A DNA stretch of 54,460 nt, taken from NCBI GenBank assembly GCA_900197615.1, contig FZLR01000009.1, positions 1 through 54,460 of the forward strand, in the 5' to 3' direction. The number at the start of each line of letters is the position of its first letter. Position 1 is the stretch's first letter. Positions 40,937 through 54,460 of this stretch are shown piece after piece. The notes beneath the pieces are model-generated. The model saw only the letters and a list, made by a program, of their open reading frames with translations. It had not been told where the DNA came from and did not search any database. Origin of the DNA: Rhodospirillaceae bacterium Spongia-Bin9. GTDB taxonomy: Bacteria; Pseudomonadota; Alphaproteobacteria; Bin65. The translations under genes were made by a program, and so were the position numbers.

Positions 40937-41833
40937 TCAGGCCGCCGCCGCTTCGATCTTGTCCTGGGTCTTGGTCTCGAAGTCGGACGCGTCGTGGCGT
41001 TCGTGGAGCTGGCTTGCCGGATCGCCCATGGTGCGGTTGACCATGCGGCCGCGCTTGACCGCCGGGCGCGCCGCGATGGCGTCGCTCCAGCGGTTGACGT
41101 GCTCATACTCCTCGACCTGGAGAAACTCGCCAGCCTCGTAGATCCGGCCCTTGGCCAGCGCGCCGTACCACGGCCAGATCGCCATGTCGGCAATGCTGTA
41201 TTCGTCGCCGGCAAAATATTCGTGGCCGGCCAGGTGACGGTCGAGCACATCGAGCTGGCGCTTGGCCTCCATGGCGAAGCGGTCGATGGCATATTCGATC
41301 TTGACCGGCGCGTAGGCGTAGAAATGGCCGAATCCGCCGCCGAGATAGGGCGCGCTGCCCATCTGCCAGAACAGCCAGTTCAGCGCCTCGGTGCGCTTCG
41401 CCGGATCATCGGGCAGAAAGGCGCCGAATTTTCCGGCGAGATAGACCAGGATCGAACCGCTCTCGAAAACCCGCCGCGGCGGCGAGCCGGCAGGTTCCGG
41501 GCTGCGGTCGATCAATGCCGGAATCTTCGAATTCGGGTTGGCCCCGACGAAGCCGCTGCCGAACTGGTCGCCGTCCCGGATGCGGACGAGCCAGGCATCG
41601 TATTCCGCGCCGCTGTGGCCGGCAGCCAGCAATTCCTCCAGCAGGACCGTGACTTTCACCCCGTTGGGCGTGCCGAGCGAATAGAGCTGGAGCGGATGTT
41701 TGCCGACGGGCAGGTCCTTGTCGTGGGTCGCGCCGGCAACCGGCCGGTTGATATTGGCGAAGTTGCCGCCGCTGGGCTTTTCCCAGGTCCAGATTTTCGG
41801 CGGGGTGTATTCGGCAGGGGCGTCTGAGGGCAT
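40937..41833 (-). CDS. yghU: YghU-type glutathione transferase / disulfide-bond oxidoreductase
   Basis: 298 residues. The N-terminal extension ([61 protein letters not shown]) is diagnostic for YghU/YfcG-like nu-class GSTs. Thr-Pro-Asn-Gly sits at the glutathione site, [11 protein letters not shown] is the cis-Pro loop, and [17 protein letters not shown] contains the ES motif. The helical domain has [17 protein letters not shown] and [21 protein letters not shown]. coli YghU reduces disulfides using two bound glutathiones. Convergent with the cyclase gene, divergent from icmF. Confidence 0.93.
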
Positions 41834-42056
41834 GGTGCGGAGGTCCGGCTATTTCGGTTTGTGCGCTTTCAATGGCCGGATGACAGGTCGCTGTCCAGAG
41901 CGAAGGATGCCGCGCGTCTGTGCCGGCAGCTGGAGGGGCGTCCCGCGCCATGCCGTCCCTATACCTGCCGGTCGGCCTGCCTTACATTCGGCAGCGGTGC
42001 GGCTGCGCCGCTTTGCGCGCCGCGTCGGGATACCGCCCCGGAGGAGGCCGTTTCGC

Positions 42057-45000
42057 ATGCCGGATGACAGTCGCCTGGCGCTCGCTGCTGCCGGAAAAGA
42101 GTCTGCGCTGAAGAACCCCGTCCGCTTCGTGACGGCGGCGTCGCTGTTCGACGGCCACGATGCGTCGATCAACATCATGCGCCGTATCCTGCAGGCGCAG
42201 GGAGCGGAGGTTATCCATCTCGGCCATAACCGCTCGGTCGACGAGATCGTCAAGGCGGCGATCGAGGAGGACGCGCACGGCATCGCCGTCTCGTCCTACC
42301 AGGGCGGCCATGTCGAGTTTTTCAAATACACGGTCGACCGGCTGAACGCCCTGCGGGCCGGCCACATCAAGGTGTTCGGCGGCGGCGGCGGCACCATCGT
42401 GCCGGAGGAAATCCGCGAACTGCACGATCACGGCGTGGCCCGCATCTATAGCCCCTACGACGGGCAGAAACTCGGCCTTCCGGGCATGATCGCCAACATG
42501 CTGGAGAGTGCGGATGTCGATCTCGCCGCCACGCCGCCGCCGAACCTGAACGCGCTTGACGCGGCCCATTCCGGCGTCGTCGCCCGGCTGCTCTCCTGCC
42601 TGGAGAGCGGATCGCTGCCGCAATCGATGGCGGCTGAAATTTCGCAACGGGCGTCGAAGATCGGCACGCCGGTTCTCGGCATCACCGGCACCGGCGGCGC
42701 GGGCAAGAGTTCCCTGACCGACGAGATCGTCCAGCGCTTCCGCCAGGATCAGCCGGATCTGCGCATCGCGCTGATCGCCATCGACCCGACCCGCCGGCGC
42801 ACCGGCGGCGCGCTGCTCGGCGACCGCATCCGGATGAACGCGATCGACAGCGACCGGGTCTACATGCGCTCCATCGCCACCCGCGGCGCCGAGGGCGAAA
42901 TTCCGCCGGTCACGCCCCGGGCGATTGAGGTTTGCAAGGCCGCCGGTTTCGATCTCGTGATCGTCGAGACGCCGGGCATCGGCCAGGGCGACGCCGGCAT
43001 CGTGCCCTATGTCGATCTTTCCCTCTATGTCATGACGCCGGAGTTCGGCGCCGCCAGCCAGCTCGAAAAGATCGACATGCTGGATTTTGCCGATCTGGTG
43101 GCGATCAACAAGTTCGACCGCAAGGGCGGCAAGGACGCGCTGCGCGATGTCGCCAAGCAGGTCCAGCGCAACCGCGAAGCCTTCGGCAAGCGGCCGGAGG
43201 AGATGCCCGTCTACGGCACGATCGCCAGCCGTTTCAACGACGACGGCGTGACGGCGCTCTATCTCGGCCTCCTGGACCGCCTGCGCGAAAGGGGACTTGC
43301 GGCGGGCGAGAGCAAATGGCCGGCGGCGGGCGTCCGCCATTCCTCGGACAACCGCGCCATCGTTCCGGCGGACCGGACGCGCTACCTGTCCGAGATATCG
43401 GCGACCGTGCGGGGTTATCACGAATGGGCCGGTACGCAGGCGCAGATCGCGCGGGAGCGGCAGCAACTCACGGCGACCCGTGCGATGCTGGGCAAGAAGG
43501 ATAGCCCGAAAGCCCTCGACGCGCTGATCGCCGAAAAGGACGCCGCCCTCGACCCGCGCGCCCGCAAATTGCTGGAAATCTGGCCGCGGGTGAAGGCGGA
43601 CTACGGCGGCGACGAATACAAGGTGAAGATCCGCAGCCGCGAGCTCACCTACGCCCTGAAATCCAAGAGCCTGAGCGGCACGCCGGTGCCGCGGGTCGCG
43701 CTGCCGCAATGGCAGGACGAGGGCGAAATCCTGCACTGGTTGCTGCGCGAGAACGTGCCAGGCAGCTACCCCTATACCGCCGGCGTCTTCGCCTTCAAGC
43801 GCGAGGGTGAGGACCCGACGCGCATGTTCGCCGGAGAAGGCGACGCTGCGCGCACCAACCGCCGCTTCCACTATCTCTCGGCCAACTCCGAAGCCAAGCG
43901 CCTCTCCACGGCCTTCGACAGCGTGACGTTGTATGGCCAGGATCCGGCGCTGCGGCCCGATATCTACGGCAAGGTCGGCACATCCGGCGTCTCGATTTCG
44001 ACACTGGAGGACATGAAGGTCCTCTACAGCGGTTTCGACCTGTGCGCGCCGGCGACTTCGGTCTCCATGACCATTAACGGCCCGGCGCCGACTATTCTGG
44101 CGATGTTCCTGAACACTGCCGTCGACCAGCAGGTCGACAAATTCCGCGAGGAAAACGGCCGCGCGCCGACGGACGAGGAAATCGCCAAGATCCGCGCCTG
44201 GACCCTCTCGACCGTCCGCGGCACCGTCCAGGCCGACATTCTCAAGGAGGACCAGGGCCAGAACACCTGCCTGTTTTCGACCGAGTTCAGCCTCAAGGTG
44301 ATGGGCGACATCGCGCAGTATTTCGTCCAGCACGACGTGCAGAATTTCTATTCGGTCTCGATCAGCGGCTACCACATCGCAGAGGCCGGCGCGAACCCGA
44401 TCACCCAGCTGGCGTTGACGCTCTCCAACGGCTTCACCTATGTCGAGAGCTATCTGGCGCGCGGCATGAACATCGACGATTTCGCGCCCAACCTGAGCTT
44501 CTTCTTCTCCTACGGCATGGACCCGGAATACAGCGTCATCGGCCGGGTGGCGCGGCGCATCTGGGCGACCGTCATGCGCGAGAAATACGGCGCGAGCGAA
44601 CGCAGCCAGAAGCTCAAGTTCCACAGCCAGACCTCGGGCCGCTCCCTGCACGCCCAGGAATACAGCTTCAACGACATCCGCACGACGCTTCAGGCGCTGA
44701 TCTCGACCTACGACAACACCAACAGCCTGCACACCAACGCCTACGACGAGGCGATCACCACGCCGACGGAAGAAAGCGTGCGCCGCGCCATGGCGATCCA
44801 GCTCATCATCAACAAGGAATGGGGGCTGGCGAAGAACGAGAACCCGAACCAGGGCAGCTTCGTTATCGACGAGCTGACCGACCTGGTGGAGGAGGCGGTG
44901 CTCGCCGAGTTCGACCGCATCGGCGAGCGCGGCGGCGTGCTGGGCGCGATGGAGTTGGGCTATCAGCGCGGCCTGATCCAGGAAGAGAGTCTCTACTACG

Positions 45001-45320
45001 AGACGCTAAAACACGACGGCGACCTGCCGATCGTCGGCGTCAACACCTTCCGCAATCCGAATGCCGAAGAGTGGGAAGAGACCACCCTTGAGCTGATGCG
45101 CGGCACGGAAGAAGAGAAGCAGGGCGCACTGGAGGCGCTGGAGCGGTTCCACGACGCGCACGCGACCGAGGCGCCGGCCATGCTGGAGCGCCTGCGCGAG
45201 GCCGTGCGCCGGGACGACAACGTCTTCGAAGTGCTGATGGACGCCGTGCGCGTCTGCTCCCTCGGCCAGATCACCCGGACCCTGTTCGAGGTCGGCGGGA
45301 AGTACCGGCGGAATATGTAA
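42057..45320 (+). CDS. icmF: Fused isobutyryl-CoA mutase / G-protein chaperone
   Basis: 1087 residues from ATG 42057, with GGAGGAGG nine bases upstream. Three parts in the order of IcmF: an N-terminal cobalamin-binding domain ([17 protein letters not shown], base-off His34, and [12 protein letters not shown]); a MeaI-like GTPase ([17 protein letters not shown]-loop, [24 protein letters not shown]); and a TIM-barrel acyl-CoA mutase ([64 protein letters not shown]-like [18 protein letters not shown]). The Phe in AGVF at the position of methylmalonyl-CoA mutase's Tyr favours isobutyryl/n-butyryl-CoA. It interconverts these CoA esters using adenosylcobalamin and protects itself through the GTPase. 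Full length, no breaks. Confidence 0.96.
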
Positions 45321-46103: not shown

Positions 46104-47729
46104 ATGGCAGATGCATCATCGTCGATAGACCGGCCGGCCCGGAGCGGCGCACAGGAGCGTCGCCGCCGCAGGCGAGGGCGTCGCCCGGCAGACGGTTCGG
46201 CGGTCGATAACCGGTCTGTCGCCGGATCCGAGAGTCGACCTGCCCGCAAGGTCGATTATCGCCGGCTGGTCAATCCGTTCGAGCCGGTGCGCGTCTATTC
46301 CGACGATCATATCGCCGCCATCCACGACACCGCGCTTAAGGTGCTGGAAGAGCTGGGCATGCGCCTGTTGCTGCCGGAGGCGCTCGACCTGCTGCGCACA
46401 AAGGCGGCGGACGGCGTTTCGATCGACGACGACGCCCGGCATTGCCGCTTCGACCGCGGGCTGGTGGCCGCGGCGATCGCGACGGCGCCGGCGCAGTGGA
46501 CCCTGCATGGCGGCACGGCCGAAACCTCGCTGGCGTTCGGCGGCCGGCACGTCATCTGGTGCGCGGTCGGCGGCGCGCCGCATATCTCGGACCTCGACGG
46601 CGGAAAACGGCCCGGAACCCTGGAGGACAGCAGCAACATCATGCGGCTGTGCGAGCATTACGATGTCATGCATGTGCAGGGCCCGAACGTCGAAGCGCAG
46701 GATATCGACACCGCGTTTCGCCATCTGGAAGTCACCCGCGCGCAACTCGTCCTCTCGACCAAGCCGCCATTCGTCTACTGCCGCGGCAAGGGCCAGGTCG
46801 CCGATGGCATGGAGATGGTGCGGATCGCCCGCGGCCTTTCGGAGGAGGCGTTCCGGGCCGCACCCTATGTTTACACCGTCATCAACACCAACTCGCCGCT
46901 GGTGCTCGACCGGCCGATGCTCCAGGGGATCATGGATTACGCTGCCAACGGCCAGCCGATCCTCCTGACGCCCTTCACGCTTTCGGGCGCGATGGCGCCG
47001 GTCACCATCCCCGGCGCCTTGGTCCAGCAGCATGCCGAGTTTCTCGCCGGACTGGTGATCAGCCAGCTGACCCGCCCCGGCGCGCCGGTCTGCTACGGCG
47101 CCTTTACCTCCAACGTCGCCATGCGCAGCGGGGCGCCGGCCTTCGGCACGCCGGAGAATGTCCGGGCCGCCTTCGCCAGTGGGCAGCTTGCCCGGCTGGT
47201 CGACGTGCCGTGGCGCTCCTCCGGGTCGTGCACGGCCAACTGCGTCGACGCCCAGGCGGTCTACGAGACCCAGATGGCGATGTGGGGCGCGACACTCGGC
47301 GGCGCGAACTTCGTCGCCCATGCCGCCGGCTGGATGGAAGGCGGGCTGACCGGCTCGATGGAGAAATTCATCGTCGATATCGAGATGCTGCAGCAGATGG
47401 CGGAACTGATGCAGCCTGTTAGCGTGGACGAAGACGATCTCGCCTTCGAGGCGATGCGCGATGTCGGCAGCGGCGGCCATTTCTTCGGCACGCAGCACAC
47501 GATGGATCGCTACGAGACAGCTTTTTACGAACCTTTCCTGTCCGATTGGAGCAACTTCAACCAGTGGACCGAGAACGGCTCGGTTCAGACGCCGGAACGG
47601 GCGAACGCCATCTGGAAAAAAGTGCTGGACGAATTCGAGCCGCCGAAGATGGACGAAGCCGTCCGCGAGGCCCTGGACGATTTCGTCGCCCGCCGCACCG
47701 CCGAGGGCGGCGCGCCGCCGCTAAGTTGA
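46104..47729 (+). CDS. Non-pyrrolysine MttB-family (trimethylamine/betaine:corrinoid) methyltransferase
   Basis: 541 residues from ATG 46104. MttB-superfamily TIM-barrel methyltransferase: PVRVYSDDHIAAIHDTALKVLEELGMRLLLPEALDLL at the start, WCAVGGAPHISDLDGGKRPGTLEDSSNIMRLCEHYDVMHVQGPNVEAQDID, FTLSGAMAPVTIPGALVQQHAEFLAGLVI, and the C-terminal DVGSGGHFFGTQHTMDRYETAFYEPFLSDWSNFNQWTENG. The frame contains no in-frame TAG, so it lacks pyrrolysine and belongs to the group that includes glycine-betaine methyltransferase MtgB. An unusual N-terminal tail is Arg-rich (ERRRRRRGRRPADG). First gene of the amine-demethylation operon, 56 bp before an FAD oxidase. Corrinoid partner not in view. Confidence 0.9.
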   Translation: MADASSSIDRPARSGAQERRRRRRGRRPADGSAVDNRSVAGSESRPARKVDYRRLVNPFEPVRVYSDDHIAAIHDTALKVLEELGMRLLLPEALDLLRTKAADGVSIDDDARHCRFDRGLVAAAIATAPAQWTLHGGTAETSLAFGGRHVIWCAVGGAPHISDLDGGKRPGTLEDSSNIMRLCEHYDVMHVQGPNVEAQDIDTAFRHLEVTRAQLVLSTKPPFVYCRGKGQVADGMEMVRIARGLSEEAFRAAPYVYTVINTNSPLVLDRPMLQGIMDYAANGQPILLTPFTLSGAMAPVTIPGALVQQHAEFLAGLVISQLTRPGAPVCYGAFTSNVAMRSGAPAFGTPENVRAAFASGQLARLVDVPWRSSGSCTANCVDAQAVYETQMAMWGATLGGANFVAHAAGWMEGGLTGSMEKFIVDIEMLQQMAELMQPVSVDEDDLAFEAMRDVGSGGHFFGTQHTMDRYETAFYEPFLSDWSNFNQWTENGSVQTPERANAIWKKVLDEFEPPKMDEAVREALDDFVARRTAEGGAPPLS

Positions 47730-47785
47730 CGGCGGCAGCCCGGCGAACCGAGAAGGCCGGCGAACCGAGAAGGAGTGAGAGAGAC

Positions 47786-49090
47786 GTGGTCGATACTACA
47801 GACGCTATCGTTATCGGGGCCGGGGTCATCGGCGCGGCTACTTCGTTCGAACTTGCCAAAACCGGCCGCAAGGTGGTGTCGGTCGATGCCAACGGCGATG
47901 CCGGCATGGGATCGACCGCCGGATCCTGCGCCATTATCCGGGTGCATTACTCTACGCTGGACGGCACCGCCTTCGCCTATGAAGGCTATTTCTACTGGCG
48001 CGACTGGGCCGACTACCTGGAAGTCGCCGACGAGGCCGGCCTGGCCCGGTTCGTCCAGTGCGGCGCTTTGGTGATGGCGGTCGATGCCAACGGATATCTC
48101 ACGAAACACAAAAGGTATTGCGACGAACTCGATATTCCGTATGAGGATTGGGATGCCGATGCGATCCTGCGCCGCCTGCCGCAATTCGATCTGGCCTGCC
48201 ATTCGCCGGCCAAGCGCATGGACGATGCCGGTTTCGGCGAACCGACCGGCGGCTCGGTCAAGGCCGGGGTCTACTGGCCGACCGCGGGATACATCACCGA
48301 TCCTCAGCTTGCTTCCCACAACCTGCGCCGGGCGGCGGAAGCCAAAGGCGCACGCTTCCGGTTCAATGCCCGCGTGACGGATATCCTGCAGCAGGACGGC
48401 CGCACCGCCGGGGTCAGGCTGGCGGACGGCGCGGAAATCCATGCGCCGGTTGTGGTCAATGTCGGCGGGCCGGCGTCCTACAAGCTCAACGAGATGGCGG
48501 GCGTGACCGGCGACATGACGATCAAGACCCGGGCACTGAAGCAGGAAGTGGTCCACGTTCCGGCGCCGGAGGGGATGGATTTCGAGGCGAACGGCTTTGT
48601 CATGTCCGACAGCGATATCAGCGTCTATACCCGGCCGGAGCAGGGCAACCATATCCTGATCGGCAGCGAGGATCCGGAATGCGACGCGCGCGACTGGGTC
48701 GATCCGGACGACTACGACACCAATTTCACCGACCAGTGGACCCACCAGGCCTACCGCTTTGCCCAGCGGCTGCCGACGCTCGGCATCCCGAGCCGGATGA
48801 AAGGCGTCGTCGATCTTTACGATGTGTCCGACGACTGGATTCCGATCTACGACAAGTCGGCACTGCCGGGATTCTACATGGCCTGCGGCTCGAGCGGAAA
48901 CCAGTTCAAGAATGCGGCGATCGCCGGCAAGATGATGGCTTCGCTCATCGACTATTGCGAAGCCGGTAACGATCACGATACCGACCCGCTGCAATTTACC
49001 CTGCCGTATATCGGCCGGGCGATCGATGTGGGATTCTTCTCCCGCAAGCGCGAGATCAATCCCGAGAGCAGCTTCTCGGTGCTGGGCTAG
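47786..49090 (+). CDS. FAD-dependent amine oxidoreductase (DAO / sarcosine-oxidase-beta-like)
   Basis: 434 residues from GTG 47786, with AAGGAG ten bases upstream. N-terminal dinucleotide-binding motif DAIVIGAGVIGAATSFELAKTGRKVVSVDAN, then AGSCAIIRVHYS, a DAO-fold substrate domain, and the C-terminal FYMACGSSGNQFKNAAIAGKMMASLI. This single-domain form has no GcvT domain, unlike its two downstream neighbours. It probably oxidises a secondary or tertiary amine such as an N-methylated amino acid. Substrate not determinable. 18 bp before the next gene. Confidence 0.88.
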   Translation: MVDTTDAIVIGAGVIGAATSFELAKTGRKVVSVDANGDAGMGSTAGSCAIIRVHYSTLDGTAFAYEGYFYWRDWADYLEVADEAGLARFVQCGALVMAVDANGYLTKHKRYCDELDIPYEDWDADAILRRLPQFDLACHSPAKRMDDAGFGEPTGGSVKAGVYWPTAGYITDPQLASHNLRRAAEAKGARFRFNARVTDILQQDGRTAGVRLADGAEIHAPVVVNVGGPASYKLNEMAGVTGDMTIKTRALKQEVVHVPAPEGMDFEANGFVMSDSDISVYTRPEQGNHILIGSEDPECDARDWVDPDDYDTNFTDQWTHQAYRFAQRLPTLGIPSRMKGVVDLYDVSDDWIPIYDKSALPGFYMACGSSGNQFKNAAIAGKMMASLIDYCEAGNDHDTDPLQFTLPYIGRAIDVGFFSRKREINPESSFSVLG

Positions 49091-49108
49091 GGACGAGGGA
49101 ACGCGACC

Positions 49109-51556
49109 ATGGCCGATCTGCCAACGACTGCCCGTGTCGTCATCGTCGGCGGCGGCGCCGTCGGCGCCTCCAGCCTCTACCATCTGGCGCTCAAGGGCTG
49201 GACCGATTGCATCCTGCTGGAAAAGAACGAGCTGACATCGGGCTCGACCTGGCACGCCGCCGGCAATGTGCCGACCTTCTCGGCAAGCTGGTCGGTCATG
49301 AACATGCAGCGCTATTCGACGGAGCTGTATCGCGATCTCGGCGAGCGGGTCGACTATCCGATGAACTACCACGTCACCGGGTCGCTGCGCCTCGCCCATT
49401 CGCGTAACCGGATGATGGAGTTCGAACGGGTCGTCGGCATGGGCCGCTACCAGGGCCTCGATGTCTCGATGGTCTCCGTGGCCGACCTGAAGGACCGCTA
49501 TCCCTTCCTGGAAACCCACGATCTGGCCGGCGGCCTGTACGATCCCTACGACGGCGATATCGATCCGGCGCAGTTGACCCAGGCGCTGGCGAAAGGCGCG
49601 CGCGACCTGGGCGCGAAGATCGTTCGTTTCTGCCCGGCTACGGGGGTGCGCCGCGAGGGCGGGGAGTGGGTCGTCGAGACGCCGCAGGGCGAAATCCGCT
49701 GCGAATACGCGGTCAACGCCGCGGGCTATCGCGCCCAGGAGGTCGGCGCAATGTTCGGCCGTTTCGTGCCGATGGTCAGCATGTCCCACCAGTATATGCT
49801 GACCGATCCGATCCCGGAGCTCGAGTCCTGGAGCGCCGGAGAGGGCCGGAAACTACCGCTGCTGCGCGACGTCGACAGCTCCTATTATCTGCGCCAGGAA
49901 AAATTCGGCCTCAATCTCGGCCCCTACGAGCGCAATTGCCGTGCGCACTGGACGACGCCGGACGATCCGATGCCGGAGGATTTTTCCTTCCAGCTTTATC
50001 CGGACGATCTCGACCGGCTCGAATGGTATATCGAGGATGCGATGGAACGGGTGCCGATTCTCGGTTCCGCCGGCGTCAACAAGGTCATCAACGGGCCGAT
50101 CCCCTACACGCCGGACGGCAACCCTCTCATCGGTCCGATGCCGGGCGTGCCGAACGCTTACGAAGCCTGCGTCTTCACCTTCGGCATCGCCCAGGCGGGC
50201 GGTGCCGGCAAGGTGCTCGCCGAATGGGTCGTCGAAGGCGGCACGGAATGGGACATGTGGAGCTGCGACCCGCGCCGCTTCACGGCTTACGCCGACCAGG
50301 ACCATACCAACCAGAAGGGCATGGAGGTCTACGGTCACGAATACGCCATGCACTTCCCGCACCACGAATGGCCGGCCGGCCGCGGCAAGCGCCTGTCGCC
50401 GATCCACGGCCGGCTGAAGGAATTCGGCGCCCGGTTCGGCGTCTACGGCGGCTGGGAGCGGGCCAACTGGTTCGCGCAGCCGGGCGACGACACCTCGGAG
50501 GAGGCGACACAGACCTGGGAGCGGGAAGGGCCCTGGTTCCCGCGCATCCGCGAAGAGTGCGAGGCGGTGCGCGACGCCGCCGGCATCCTCAATTTGTGCG
50601 GTTTTTCCCGCTATCTCGCGACCGGCGCAGACGCTGTGGGATGGCTAGACGGCCTGATGACCGGAAGAATCCCGTCGGTCGGGCGCATTGGCCTGGGCTA
50701 TTTCCCGGACGAGCGAGGCCGCATCGTCACCGAGATGTCGCTGATTCGCCTGGCAAAAGACAAGGTGCTGCTCATCACTGCCGCCGCCGCGGAATGGCAC
50801 GATCTGGAATGGCTGCACAAACATCTGCCCGACGGTTCCGACATCCAAATAGAAAACCGCACGGAGGAATTCGACTGCCAGATCCTGACCGGCCCCAAAA
50901 CAAGGGATATCCTGTCCGGCCTGTGCGATGCGGACCTGAACCAACCCTGGCTGAGCTGGCAGAAGACGAAAATTGCCGGCAAGCCGGTTCTTTTGTTGCG
51001 CGTGTCGTACGCCGGCGAACTGGGATGGGAAGTTCACACGCATACCGAAGACACCGGCGCGGTGTTCGACGCGGTCTGGCAGGCAGGAAAGGTCCATGGC
51101 CTGAAACCGTTCGGCATGTACGCCCTGAACAGCCTGCGGCTGGAGAAAGGCTACCGCGCCTGGAAGGGCGATCTCTCGACCGATTACACCGTCCTCGAAG
51201 GCGGGCTCGACCGGTTCGTGCGCTGGAGCAAGGAGAGCTTCGTCGGCAAGGCGGCCATGGAGATCGAGCGCCAGGCCGGCCCGGCCAAGCGATTCGTGAC
51301 ATTGGTGGTCGATGCCGGCGCCTGCGACGCGCCCTACATGTCGACCCTGCGCTACGGTGAGGAGCAGGTCGGCGAGACCACGTCCGGCGGCTGGGGCCAC
51401 CGCATCGGCAAGTCGATCGCGCTCGGCATGGCGCGGGCCGACCTGGCGGTCGAGGGTACGGAGCTGGATGTCGAGATCTTCGGCGAGCGCCACCGCGCCG
51501 TCGTCCAGGCCGACCGGCCGCTCTACGACCCGGACAACGCCCGGATGAGGGCCTGA
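49109..51556 (+). CDS. FAD-GcvT fusion, dimethylglycine/sarcosine dehydrogenase-like (copy 1)
   Basis: 815 residues from ATG 49109. An N-terminal DAO domain (VVIVGGGAVGASSLYHLALKGWTDCILLEKNELTSGSTWHAAG) contains TWHAAG, whose His carries covalent FAD in dimethylglycine and sarcosine dehydrogenases. The DAO domain extends to about residue 400. From about 420 a GcvT-like tetrahydrofolate-binding domain follows (GVYGGWERANWFAQPG, AVRDAAGILNLCGFSRYLATGADAVGWLDGLMTGRIP, VSYAGELGWEVHT). Oxidises an N-methyl group and passes formaldehyde-level carbon to THF as methylene-THF. Tandem with copy 2, three bases apart. Confidence 0.93.
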   Translation: MADLPTTARVVIVGGGAVGASSLYHLALKGWTDCILLEKNELTSGSTWHAAGNVPTFSASWSVMNMQRYSTELYRDLGERVDYPMNYHVTGSLRLAHSRNRMMEFERVVGMGRYQGLDVSMVSVADLKDRYPFLETHDLAGGLYDPYDGDIDPAQLTQALAKGARDLGAKIVRFCPATGVRREGGEWVVETPQGEIRCEYAVNAAGYRAQEVGAMFGRFVPMVSMSHQYMLTDPIPELESWSAGEGRKLPLLRDVDSSYYLRQEKFGLNLGPYERNCRAHWTTPDDPMPEDFSFQLYPDDLDRLEWYIEDAMERVPILGSAGVNKVINGPIPYTPDGNPLIGPMPGVPNAYEACVFTFGIAQAGGAGKVLAEWVVEGGTEWDMWSCDPRRFTAYADQDHTNQKGMEVYGHEYAMHFPHHEWPAGRGKRLSPIHGRLKEFGARFGVYGGWERANWFAQPGDDTSEEATQTWEREGPWFPRIREECEAVRDAAGILNLCGFSRYLATGADAVGWLDGLMTGRIPSVGRIGLGYFPDERGRIVTEMSLIRLAKDKVLLITAAAAEWHDLEWLHKHLPDGSDIQIENRTEEFDCQILTGPKTRDILSGLCDADLNQPWLSWQKTKIAGKPVLLLRVSYAGELGWEVHTHTEDTGAVFDAVWQAGKVHGLKPFGMYALNSLRLEKGYRAWKGDLSTDYTVLEGGLDRFVRWSKESFVGKAAMEIERQAGPAKRFVTLVVDAGACDAPYMSTLRYGEEQVGETTSGGWGHRIGKSIALGMARADLAVEGTELDVEIFGERHRAVVQADRPLYDPDNARMRA

Positions 51557-51559
51557 GCG

Positions 51560-54010
51560 ATGGCGGCGCTGCCCCGGCAGGCCCGGGCCGTCATTATCGG
51601 CGGCGGCGTTTCCGGCTGCTCGGTCGCCTATCATCTTGCAAAACTCGGCTGGAAAGACATCGTACTGCTTGAGCGCAAGCAGCTGACCTGCGGCACGACC
51701 TGGCACGCCGCCGGCCTGATCGGGCAGCTGCGCGCCAGCCTGAACCTGACGCGGCTGGCGAAATATTCCGCGGAACTTTACGTCCGGTTGGAAGAAGAGA
51801 CCGGCATCGCCACCGGGATGCGCCAGAACGGCTCGATCACCGTAGCGCTGACCGAAGAGCGCAAGGAGGAAATCTATCGCCAGGCCTCGCTGGCGCGCGC
51901 CTTCGATGTCGAAGTCGCGGAAATTACGCCGTCGGAGACGAAGGCGCTTTATCCTCACCTGAATGTCGGCGATGTCGCCGGCGCCGTTCACCTGCCCCTC
52001 GACGGCCAATGCGATCCGGCGAATATCGCGCTGGCGCTGGCGAAGGGCGCGCGCCAGAACGGCGCTCTATTGGCCGAGGGCGTGAAGGTCACCGGGGTTT
52101 CAAGCGCGAACGGCCGCGTCGCCGGCGTCTCCTGGGAGCGCGACGGAGAGCGGGGCGAGATCGCCAGCGATATCGTGATCAACTGCGCCGGCATGTGGGC
52201 GCGGGAACTGGGCGCGATGAGCGGCGTGACGATCCCGCTGCATGCCTGCGAGCATTTCTACATCGTCACCGAGCCGATCCCCGATCTCGGCGCGTTGCCC
52301 GTGCTGCGCGTGCCCGACGAGTGCGCCTACTACAAGGAGGATGCCGGCAAGATGCTGCTCGGCGCCTTCGAGCCCGTCGCCAAGCCCTGGGGCATGGACG
52401 GCATCCCGGAAGACTTCTGCTTCGACCAGCTGCCCGAGGATTTCGACCATTTCGAACCGATCCTCGAACAGGCGGTCGGGCGTATGCCGCTGCTCGGCGA
52501 GGCCGGAATCCACACCTTCTTCAACGGTCCCGAGAGCTTTACCCCGGACGACCGCTACTATCTGGGCGAAGCGCCCGAGCTGCGCGGCTACTGGATAGCC
52601 GCGGGCTACAACTCCATCGGCATCGTCTCGTCGGGCGGCGCGGGAATGGCGCTCGCCCAGTGGATCGCCGACGGCGAAGCGCCGTTCGACCTGTGGGAGG
52701 TCGATATCCGGCGGGTCCAGCCGTTCCAGAAGAACCGCCACTATCTGAAACACCGGGTGAGCGAGACCCTGGGCCTGCTCTATGCCGACCATTTTCCCTA
52801 CCGGCAGCCGGCCAGCGCCCGCGGCGTCCGCCGCTCGCCGCTGCACGAGCATCTGAAGGCGCGCGGCGCCTGCTTCGGCGAAACGGCGGGCTGGGAGCGT
52901 GCCAACTGGTTCGCGCCGGCCGGCGCCGCCCCGGAATACCGCTACAGCTGGAAGCGCCAGAACTGGTTCGAGCATTCGCGCGACGAGCACATGGCGGTCC
53001 GCGAGCGCGTCGGCCTGTTCGACATGACCTCTTTCGGCAAGTTGCGCGTCGAGGGCCGTGATGCCGAAACCGTGCTGAACCGGATTTGCGGCAACGATGT
53101 CGCGGTGCTGCCGGGCCGGCTGGTCTACACCCAGTGGCTTAACGCCCGCGGCGGCATCGAGGCGGATCTGACGGTCGCGCGCCTGTCCGAGACCGAATTC
53201 CTGGTCGTCACGCCGGCGGCGACCGTGCAGCGCGACCTCGCCTGGCTACGCCGCCACATCCCGGACGACGCCCATATCGTCGTCACCGACGTGACGGCGG
53301 GCGAGGCGGTATTGTGCGTTATGGGACCGAAAGCGCGCGCCGTGCTGAACGCCTGTTCGCCGGCCGACCTGTCGAACGAGGCGTTTCCGTTCGGCTCGGT
53401 CCGGGAGATCGAAATCGGCATGGGCCTCGCCCGGGCGCACCGCGTTTCCTATGTCGGCGAACTCGGCTGGGAACTCTACGTCTCCGCCGAAATGGCCGCG
53501 CATGTCTTCGAAGCGCTGGAAGAGGCGGGGGCGGTGCACGGCCTCGAATTGTGCGGCCTGCACATGATGGACAGCTGCCGGATCGAGAAGGCCTTCCGCC
53601 ATTTCGGCCACGACATCACCGACGAGGATCATGTGCTCGAAGCCGGCCTCGGCTTCGCCGTGCGCACGAAGAAGCCGGACTTTTTCGGCCGGGACGCCGT
53701 TTTGCGCAAACGGGAGGAAGGTCTTTCCCGGCGTCTGCTGCAATTCCGCTTGCGCGACCCCGAGCCGCTGCTGTTCCATAACGAACCCATCGTGCGGGAC
53801 GGCGAGATGGTCGGTTATCTGACCTCAGGCAACTACGGCCATGCGCTGGGCGGTGCGGTCGGCCTGGGCTATGTGCCGTGCCCGGACGGCGAGAGCGCCG
53901 AGGCGCAGCTTGCCTCGGGCTACGAAATCGAGATCGCCGGCGCGCGCGTCGCCGCCGATGTTTCGCTCCGGCCCATGTACGATCCGGCAGCCGAGCGGGT
54001 GCGAATGTGA
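51560..54010 (+). CDS. FAD-GcvT fusion, dimethylglycine/sarcosine dehydrogenase-like (copy 2)
   Basis: 816 residues from ATG 51560, same architecture as copy 1 but clearly diverged: AVIIGGGVSGCSVAYHLAKLGWKDIVLLERKQLTCGTTWHAAGLIGQLRASLNLT, with the covalent-FAD TWHAAG preserved. The GcvT half has CFGETAGWERANWFAPAG, MAVRERVGLFDMTSFGKLRVEGRDAETVLNRICGND, RVSYVGELGWELYVS and GLHMMDSCRIEKAFRHFGHDIT. Copy 2 keeps the conserved AAGLIGQLR segment that copy 1 replaces with AAGNVPTFS, so the two probably act on successive or different N-methyl substrates. 35 bp before the second MttB gene. Confidence 0.93.
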   Translation: MAALPRQARAVIIGGGVSGCSVAYHLAKLGWKDIVLLERKQLTCGTTWHAAGLIGQLRASLNLTRLAKYSAELYVRLEEETGIATGMRQNGSITVALTEERKEEIYRQASLARAFDVEVAEITPSETKALYPHLNVGDVAGAVHLPLDGQCDPANIALALAKGARQNGALLAEGVKVTGVSSANGRVAGVSWERDGERGEIASDIVINCAGMWARELGAMSGVTIPLHACEHFYIVTEPIPDLGALPVLRVPDECAYYKEDAGKMLLGAFEPVAKPWGMDGIPEDFCFDQLPEDFDHFEPILEQAVGRMPLLGEAGIHTFFNGPESFTPDDRYYLGEAPELRGYWIAAGYNSIGIVSSGGAGMALAQWIADGEAPFDLWEVDIRRVQPFQKNRHYLKHRVSETLGLLYADHFPYRQPASARGVRRSPLHEHLKARGACFGETAGWERANWFAPAGAAPEYRYSWKRQNWFEHSRDEHMAVRERVGLFDMTSFGKLRVEGRDAETVLNRICGNDVAVLPGRLVYTQWLNARGGIEADLTVARLSETEFLVVTPAATVQRDLAWLRRHIPDDAHIVVTDVTAGEAVLCVMGPKARAVLNACSPADLSNEAFPFGSVREIEIGMGLARAHRVSYVGELGWELYVSAEMAAHVFEALEEAGAVHGLELCGLHMMDSCRIEKAFRHFGHDITDEDHVLEAGLGFAVRTKKPDFFGRDAVLRKREEGLSRRLLQFRLRDPEPLLFHNEPIVRDGEMVGYLTSGNYGHALGGAVGLGYVPCPDGESAEAQLASGYEIEIAGARVAADVSLRPMYDPAAERVRM

Positions 54011-54045
54011 GCGGCGGCAGCCGGAAACTTACAGGGAGGCAGACC

Positions 54046-54460
54046 ATGTCTCGCGATCGGAATCCCAGGGATCGGGCAGGGCGCCGCGCCGGCGGCCGGG
54101 AAGCCAGGCGGGCCCTGCGGGCCGCGCCGCTGGCCGAGGATGTCCGGCCGGTCCGCGCCGGACTGGAAGGCGGACGCTACAAGGCGCTGACCGATGGCCA
54201 GGTGCAGCAAATTCACAGGGCGGCACTGAAAATTCTGGCGGAAATCGGCCTTGCCGACGCGCCTGAGTCCGGCGTTGCGATGATGACGGCCGCCGGCGCC
54301 GTTCTGGGCGAAGACGGCCGTTTGCGTTTCTCCCAGGCGCTGGTCGAGGACATGCTGGCGAAGGCGGCGCGGGATATCACCCTGCACGGCCAGGATCCGA
54401 AGCACGATATCCGGCCCGGCGGCAGCCGCGTCCACTACGGCACGGCGGGCGCGGCGGGCC
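54046..54460 (+). CDS. Second MttB-family methyltransferase, partial at window end
   Basis: 138 codons are visible before the window ends; start ATG 54046, with AGGGAGGC upstream. After an Arg/Ala-rich tail (SRDRNPRDRAGRRAGGREARRALRAA), the MttB N-terminal domain is recognisable: YKALTDGQVQQIHRAALKILAEIGLADAPESGVAMMTAAGAVLGEDGRLRFSQALVEDMLAKAARDITLHGQDPKHDI. It resembles the first MttB of the operon in position and tail composition but is distinct in sequence. The active-site region lies beyond the window, so presence or absence of pyrrolysine cannot be seen here. Confidence 0.85.
   Translation, partial: MSRDRNPRDRAGRRAGGREARRALRAAPLAEDVRPVRAGLEGGRYKALTDGQVQQIHRAALKILAEIGLADAPESGVAMMTAAGAVLGEDGRLRFSQALVEDMLAKAARDITLHGQDPKHDIRPGGSRVHYGTAGAAG

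Follow-up and report, generated by a model that had tools for sequence, protein, structure and literature searches.

The window analysed here is a 54,460-nucleotide stretch of DNA from Rhodospirillaceae bacterium Spongia-Bin9 that comprises one entire contig (G000:C138) of a 4.06-megabase genome (316 contigs, completeness 95.9%). The list of open reading frames and Pfam matches place five plus-strand genes at its right end, in the order MttB1-DAO-DH1-DH2-MttB2. An earlier note on this DNA gave the gaps between them as 56, 18, 3 and 35 base pairs, which the recomputed coordinates reproduce exactly. MttB1 (46104..47729) encodes a PF06253 methyltransferase (638 bits), and DAO (47786..49090, GTG start) carries the flavin adenine dinucleotide (FAD) oxidoreductase domain PF01266 (170 bits). 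DH1 (49109..51556) and DH2 (51560..54010) each combine PF01266, PF16350, PF01571 and PF08669, and are FAD-GcvT dehydrogenases resembling dimethylglycine dehydrogenase. MttB2 begins with an ATG at 54046 and runs to the window end at 54460 (PF06253, 67 bits on a 139-residue piece). Because the window is a whole contig, this truncation is a product of the assembly. The last 55 window bases overlap exactly with the right end of contig C157 in reversed orientation, and that contig encodes residues 119-538 of MttB2, at 95% identity to MttB2 of the sister genome G005. Full-length scores for MttB2, and for a further paralogue called MttB3, use the G005 copies.

The same gene order, which the earlier note had proposed to look for in other genomes, is retained in five of six same-genus genomes at 87-98% identity; no PF06253 gene is present in the sixth, G006. 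The source genome has six FAD-GcvT genes: the operon holds two, and one each adjoins MttB3 on C157 and an MtgB orthologue on C287. Judged by the conserved order and this distribution of FAD-GcvT genes, the five-gene grouping is more than chance.

DH1 and DH2, which are 35% identical to each other, match dimethylglycine dehydrogenase across their full length (DH1 with 575 bits to the human and 569 bits to the rat enzyme; DH2 with 493 bits to the rat enzyme). Both show the DAO, FAO_M, GCV_T and GCV_T_C domain series of dimethylglycine and sarcosine dehydrogenases together with flavin and folate motifs, including TWHAAG at residue 47, whose histidine is presumably the covalent carrier of FAD, and GELGWE. 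The two proteins share all four domains and the FAD and GcvT motifs with dimethylglycine dehydrogenase (4p9s, 5l46) and dimethylglycine oxidase (1pj5).

DAO scores well below the NCBIfam cut-offs of TIGR01377 (55.7 versus 480 bits) and NF008425 (99.5 versus 257 bits), and sequence models do not place it among the monomeric sarcosine oxidases or N-methyltryptophan oxidases, although the fold is common to them. Its predicted structure (predicted local distance difference test score 88.9) is closest to L-proline dehydrogenase (Z 42.5, root-mean-square deviation 2.2, 365 residues aligned); glycine oxidase and monomeric sarcosine oxidase follow with Z near 40. Since these three enzymes lie so near one another, the fold does not fix the substrate, and we describe DAO as an FAD amine oxidase or dehydrogenase of the sarcosine-oxidase fold that forms its own subfamily. 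The earlier description of the operon as corrinoid methyltransferases combined with three flavin N-demethylases therefore stands for the families of MttB1, MttB2, DH1 and DH2; for DAO, whose sequence matches are weak and whose likeness is one of fold, N-demethylation is a candidate role.

Membership of both methyltransferases in PF06253 (cut-off 25 bits) extends over nearly the entire model, at positions 14-500 of 500 for MttB1 and 1-490 for the G005 MttB2 (366 bits). The two are only 29% identical and belong to separate clades. In a tree of 71 rows, built by a quick method with Shimodaira-Hasegawa approximate likelihood ratio support only, 33 MttB1 and MttB3 rows group together (support 100) apart from seven alphaproteobacterial MtgB rows (support 96), and 29 MttB2 rows are set apart by a deep split with support 99 on either side. 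Neither MttB1 nor MttB2 falls in the clade that holds the Desulfitobacterium hafniense and Sinorhizobium meliloti MtgB proteins. The tree leaves out pieces under about 350 residues, 67 of the 80 named loci introduced below, the Ruegeria pomeroyi proteins MtgB1 and MtgB2 (SPO2108, SPO2134) and the Eubacterium limosum proteins, and its MttB3 rows include several unlike loci.

Pairwise scores agree with this placement. The protein encoded on C287 reaches 784 bits to 4yyc, compared with 542 for a protein on C164, 341 for MttB3, 329 for MttB1 and 146 for MttB2; to D. hafniense MtgB (2qne) the C287 protein scores 411 bits, MttB1 298 and MttB2 198. The MtgB orthologue of this genome is thus a separate gene, with an FAD-GcvT neighbour of its own. 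Over 184 residues, 4yyc matches an S. meliloti gene without any difference; we know of no direct assay of the S. meliloti gene product. That gene sits among genes for MtgC, MtgD, RamA-like, MetF-like, DUF1638 and bmt proteins, and co-location of these mtg genes in S. meliloti is reported in the accessible parts of PMC12478193.

The active-site loop further separates the two methyltransferases. In the multiple alignment, the column occupied by pyrrolysine in 7xcl contains Met (18), Ile (10) or Phe (1) in the MttB2 rows and Leu in eight MtgB rows, including 2qne. A lysine four residues further on is present in 38 rows, namely all MttB2 and MtgB rows and 7xcl. In contrast, all 33 rows of MttB1 (13) and MttB3 (20) have a gap in the pyrrolysine column, and the lysine is replaced by Asn (32) or Thr (1). 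MttB1 and MttB2 align over their full length with D. hafniense MtgB (2qne, 9yce) and S. meliloti 4yyc as members of one superfamily, and both score lower to 2qne than does the C287 protein; MttB1 and MttB3 differ from these proteins in lacking both residues. Many of the rows are close kin, and the loop change is a property of the clade, not 33 events. Pairwise phmmer alignment likewise yields a one-residue gap in the MttB1 loop. A simple motif reading, in which a cysteine at the MttB1 pyrrolysine site, taken with the selenocysteine genes close by, would form part of a cysteine-selenocysteine pair, was overturned by the multiple alignment, where the site is a one-residue deletion.

MttB enzymes depend on three partners: a corrinoid protein, a folate methyltransferase and a reductive activator. 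All of these are in the genome, clustered on contig C71 as RamA (truncated where the contig stops), MtgD, DUF1638 and MtgC, and MtgC is the sole PF02607 gene besides a 1008-residue MetH-like frame. Among the 29 class-sample genomes outside the genus that have an MttB2 relative, MtgC is found at 75% identity or more in 25. In 25 comparison genomes without MttB2, which were hand-picked rather than random and do not include G017 (which has MttB pieces), MtgC at that level of identity occurs in four, and a PF06253 gene occurs in those same four only. G006 is devoid of MtgC, DUF1638 and PF06253, and has one FAD-GcvT gene versus six or seven in the source genome and the five other relatives; this joint absence counts as one event. 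The co-occurrence supports a predicted dependence of the MttB proteins on MtgC.

Comparison with more distant genomes reveals that the operon consists of two modules, DH1-DH2-MttB2 and MttB1 with DAO. Among the 80 named loci, which are the best 80 of 574 MttB2 relatives and so a ranked sample, 27 (two of them same-genus) carry DH1-DH2-MttB2 in that order on one strand, and another five have one of DH1 and DH2 on the same strand. Carriers of the full module include Sinorhizobium/Ensifer, Shinella, Hoeflea, Rhizobium setariae, SAR116/Puniceispirillum, Seohaeicola and Gemmobacter. A class sample of 23 loci (outside the genus, 56-79% identity, one per genome) leaves out two G080 contig-edge fragments (62 and 66%) and weaker places. 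Nine of these loci have all three genes on one strand, six in the window order and three with MttB2 first, and seven have one FAD-GcvT gene beside MttB2 (one of these being a piece at a contig end). The linkage therefore recurs over families at 56-80% identity. All neighbour tallies are lower bounds, as the gene caller found MttB2 in 69 of 86 loci and missed genes where GC content is lower.

Members of the second module keep other company elsewhere. Outside the genus, all four MttB1 loci read have an FAD-GcvT gene of a different type (DH3) adjacent or one gene away. DAO relatives are present in 32 of 385 genomes searched, five of them own-genus; within 20 regions read from this match set, seven have a DH3-type gene nearby (two of these with an MttB3-type gene also) and one, in G006, has DH2.

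Some MttB2 loci carry further genes. A LysR-family regulator is present at no fewer than 20 loci and an aminotransferase at no fewer than 12. A phosphoenolpyruvate (PEP)-mutase-family protein lies between DH2 and MttB2 in L142 and L205 and upstream of MttB2 in L151, L192 and L207. Others add an aldehyde dehydrogenase or a 3-hydroxyisobutyrate-dehydrogenase-like protein, and a homocysteine S-methyltransferase gene lies between DH1 and DH2 in L157 and L177. None of these was identified within the window operon.

We lean, with modest confidence, towards an operon, organized as two modules, that would remove N-methyl groups step by step from betaine-type compounds, glycine betaine not being among them. 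What the sequences show is the order of the genes, their domains, the presence of the partner genes, the clades and the joint occurrence with MtgC. MttB2, and probably MttB1, would demethylate a quaternary amine once, with the cob(I)alamin of MtgC as methyl acceptor, giving a tertiary amine and methyl-Co(III). MtgD would pass the methyl group on to tetrahydrofolate (THF) as methyl-THF, and RamA with DUF1638 would re-reduce the cobalt. DH2 and DH1 could then oxidize the two remaining N-methyl groups in turn, from tertiary to secondary to primary amine, with their GcvT halves forming methylene-THF from each methyl group removed, and DAO might oxidize a related secondary or primary amine. Each of these reactions is proposed from what is known of the protein families, and so are the sequence in which DH1 and DH2 act, the role of DAO and a substrate other than glycine betaine.

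Several points weigh against this proposal. MtgC and MtgD lie on a contig other than that of the operon, and the operon itself has no identified gene for a transporter, a regulator or a corrinoid protein. MtgC was not seen in four of the 29 genomes with MttB2 (G074, G080, G185 and G201, at completeness 68, 82, 93 and 64). MttB1 is an uncertain candidate for a quaternary-amine methyltransferase, given a loop unlike that of known members. Neither DH1 nor DH2 is on the same strand at 48 of the 80 best MttB2 loci, of which eight have a short upstream flank and one (L187) carries both genes on the opposite strand. Likewise, seven of the 23 class-sample loci have neither gene adjoining MttB2; two of these (L222, L223) end soon past the upstream side of MttB2, and in L227 a DH3-type gene lies 5 kilobases off. 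Twelve of the 20 DAO loci lack any DH or MttB relative in their vicinity. Finally, G006 retains DH2 and DAO in the absence of any MttB, so these two proteins have a use of their own.

The general route is not new. The accessible parts of PMC12478193 describe how MtgBCD demethylates glycine betaine by a corrinoid route in aerobic Alphaproteobacteria. According to the same text, such genomes hold as many as seven pfam06253 genes, genes for later demethylation are often nearby, and other methylated substrates are suggested. The earlier note's term 'undescribed pathway' was therefore too strong. The operon gives the other-substrate idea a concrete example that is widely conserved, and involves clades other than MtgB, one of them with an altered loop. 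Like the R. pomeroyi MtgBCD system, this genome pairs PF06253 methyltransferases with single MtgC, MtgD, RamA and DUF1638 genes; unlike it, MttB1 and MttB2 lie outside the S. meliloti and D. hafniense MtgB clade and have their partners outside the operon. Titles and abstract openings in the open-licence literature yielded no description of the DH1-DH2-MttB2 module or the MttB1/MttB3 clade, no substrate for the MttB1 and MttB2 clades, and no paper on the hom (homarine) operon. Locus-tag searches gave nothing on these genes in the text available (including that of PMC9870897), and the accessible text of PMC13222342 has no bearing on the operon.

Non-pyrrolysine MttB paralogues are also known from E. 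limosum, where the available parts of PMC8604678 and PMC12155760 describe MtpB, MtcB, MtyB and MthB, and those of PMC12478193 state that the paralogues share one core corrinoid protein. The phosphocholine enzyme of PMC12155760 is presented there, in the portion seen, as the sixth superfamily member with an identified physiological substrate. By description rather than by sequence comparison, the present genome is like E. limosum in having several MttB paralogues, which serve different betaines in that organism. To our knowledge, E. limosum is an anaerobe without a linked FAD-GcvT step.

A further parallel is a cluster on the R. pomeroyi megaplasmid (SPO_RS21400-21380; NC_006569, L063:9929-19249), an uninterrupted row of genes that combines an MttB of the MttB2 clade with two FAD-GcvT genes. 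It differs in that its MttB2 is 45% identical, and in adding a class III aminotransferase and a thiamine pyrophosphate enzyme resembling sulfoacetaldehyde acetyltransferase, both under curated cut-offs. This cluster is possibly a pathway for another trimethylated amine; taurine betaine was considered as its substrate, a tentative reading given those sub-threshold scores.

A bolder version of the preferred reading, which we offer tentatively and do not expect to hold in full, would define two new functional MttB classes. MttB2, DH1 and DH2 would together make up a full pathway, acting on a trimethylated amino acid distinct from glycine betaine, and the MttB1/MttB3 clade would act on a kind of substrate new to the superfamily. 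The aminotransferase and the PEP-mutase/isocitrate-lyase-family protein found beside MttB2 in some relatives would then process the freed amino acid. One possible substrate would be the trimethylhomoserine of betaine lipids; cleavage of its oxo acid could yield pyruvate plus a one-carbon unit. Aerobic Alphaproteobacteria have many MttB paralogues, and few substrates have been assigned; the conserved three-gene module, being present in culturable rhizobia and roseobacters, makes the substrate question testable, and could reveal that marine, soil and symbiotic bacteria draw nitrogen and one-carbon units from further vitamin-B12-dependent sources.

The earlier note proposed glycine betaine or a similar betaine as the substrate. 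On the glycine-betaine account, which we regard as doubtful, MttB1 and MttB2 would be extra glycine-betaine methyltransferases and DAO a sarcosine oxidase, with DH2 and DH1 serving as the dimethylglycine and sarcosine dehydrogenases, so that the operon converts glycine betaine to glycine. The full-length dimethylglycine dehydrogenase matches of DH1 and DH2 and the sarcosine-oxidase fold of DAO are consistent with this, as may be the joint rise of two R. pomeroyi pfam06253 proteins on glycine betaine recorded in the accessible parts of PMC12478193. However, the distinct MtgB orthologue on C287 and the placement of MttB1 and MttB2 in other clades argue against it. An MtgB-like gene (expect value 1e-120 or better) is also present in 27 of the 29 class-sample genomes that hold an MttB2 relative, and 26 of these copies reach at least 58% identity; G083 and G201, where none was seen, have completeness of 67% and 64%, and the 29 genomes contain 2 to 15 PF06253 genes each. 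This coexistence indicates that MttB2 adds to MtgB and does not substitute for it, and we infer that its substrate differs from glycine betaine. On the other side, coexistence is compatible with both enzymes using glycine betaine, as they may, which counts against the substrate we propose.

Rather unlikely, in our judgement, is a locus that serves as a storage place for genes and not as one pathway, with DH1, DH2 and DAO demethylating N-methyl amino acids in general, beside MttB genes that are no more than neighbours. The genes retained by G006, the many MttB2 loci without DH1 and DH2, and the ties of MttB1 and DAO to another FAD-GcvT type elsewhere all fit such an arrangement, but recurrence of DH1-DH2-MttB2 across families at 56-80% identity is hard to explain by passive arrangement.

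That MttB1 and MttB2 are pyrrolysine-type trimethylamine methyltransferases initiating trimethylamine catabolism is highly improbable: the family name and the MttB2 score of 187 bits to pyrrolysine MttB 7xcl (nearly the 198 bits to 2qne) suggest it, whereas neither the MttB1 frame nor the MttB2 frame of the source genome and its sisters has an internal stop, TIGR02369 gives 294 (MttB1) and 341 (MttB2) bits under a cut-off of 525, and the pyrrolysine column is altered as described above. Stops were flagged in eight MttB2-type places, and open-frame lengths suggest that these are terminal. A C-terminal MttB fragment in G044:C4 was checked for an in-frame TGA, with a match limited to the fragment. 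The Rfam model PYLIS_3 scores above its gathering threshold within MttB2 on C157 and mtgB on C287 (L047:19063-19162, minus; L068:2710-2806, plus). We rejected these matches as pyrrolysine signals and read them as gene homology: the matched coding sequences have no internal stop, so the model also marks non-pyrrolysine mttB genes.

Upstream of MttB1, a large gene at window positions 41700-45320 is kept in the same-genus genomes, including G006; it looks like a putative IcmF-type B12-dependent acyl-CoA mutase. No cobalamin riboswitch before MttB1 reaches the gathering score in seven sources, where one unrelated sub-threshold match was seen.

MttB2 is followed by selenocysteine genes (selA, selB, tRNA-Sec and a selD fusion) at L039:3538-9313 in G005 and L047:12443-18245 on C157. 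This arrangement is seen in the source genome, G001, G003 and G005, and not in the stretches examined beside MttB2 in G002 and G004; the link to MttB2 is probably incidental. The MttB3 gene of the source genome is divided between the end of C215 and the start of C157 (L049, L048), which share no exact end overlap of at least 15 bases. In G005, an AhpD-related selenoprotein gene (NF041238) with one in-frame TGA lies between the selenocysteine genes and MttB3 (L039:10535-11761, minus), and the copy in the source genome (L049:13010-14236, minus, on C215) is split in two frames. In S. meliloti Ak57 (CP090106, labelled plasmid pSymB though 3.7 megabases long), DH2 matches at L061:11385-13716 fall in two frames, and the gene looks frameshifted.

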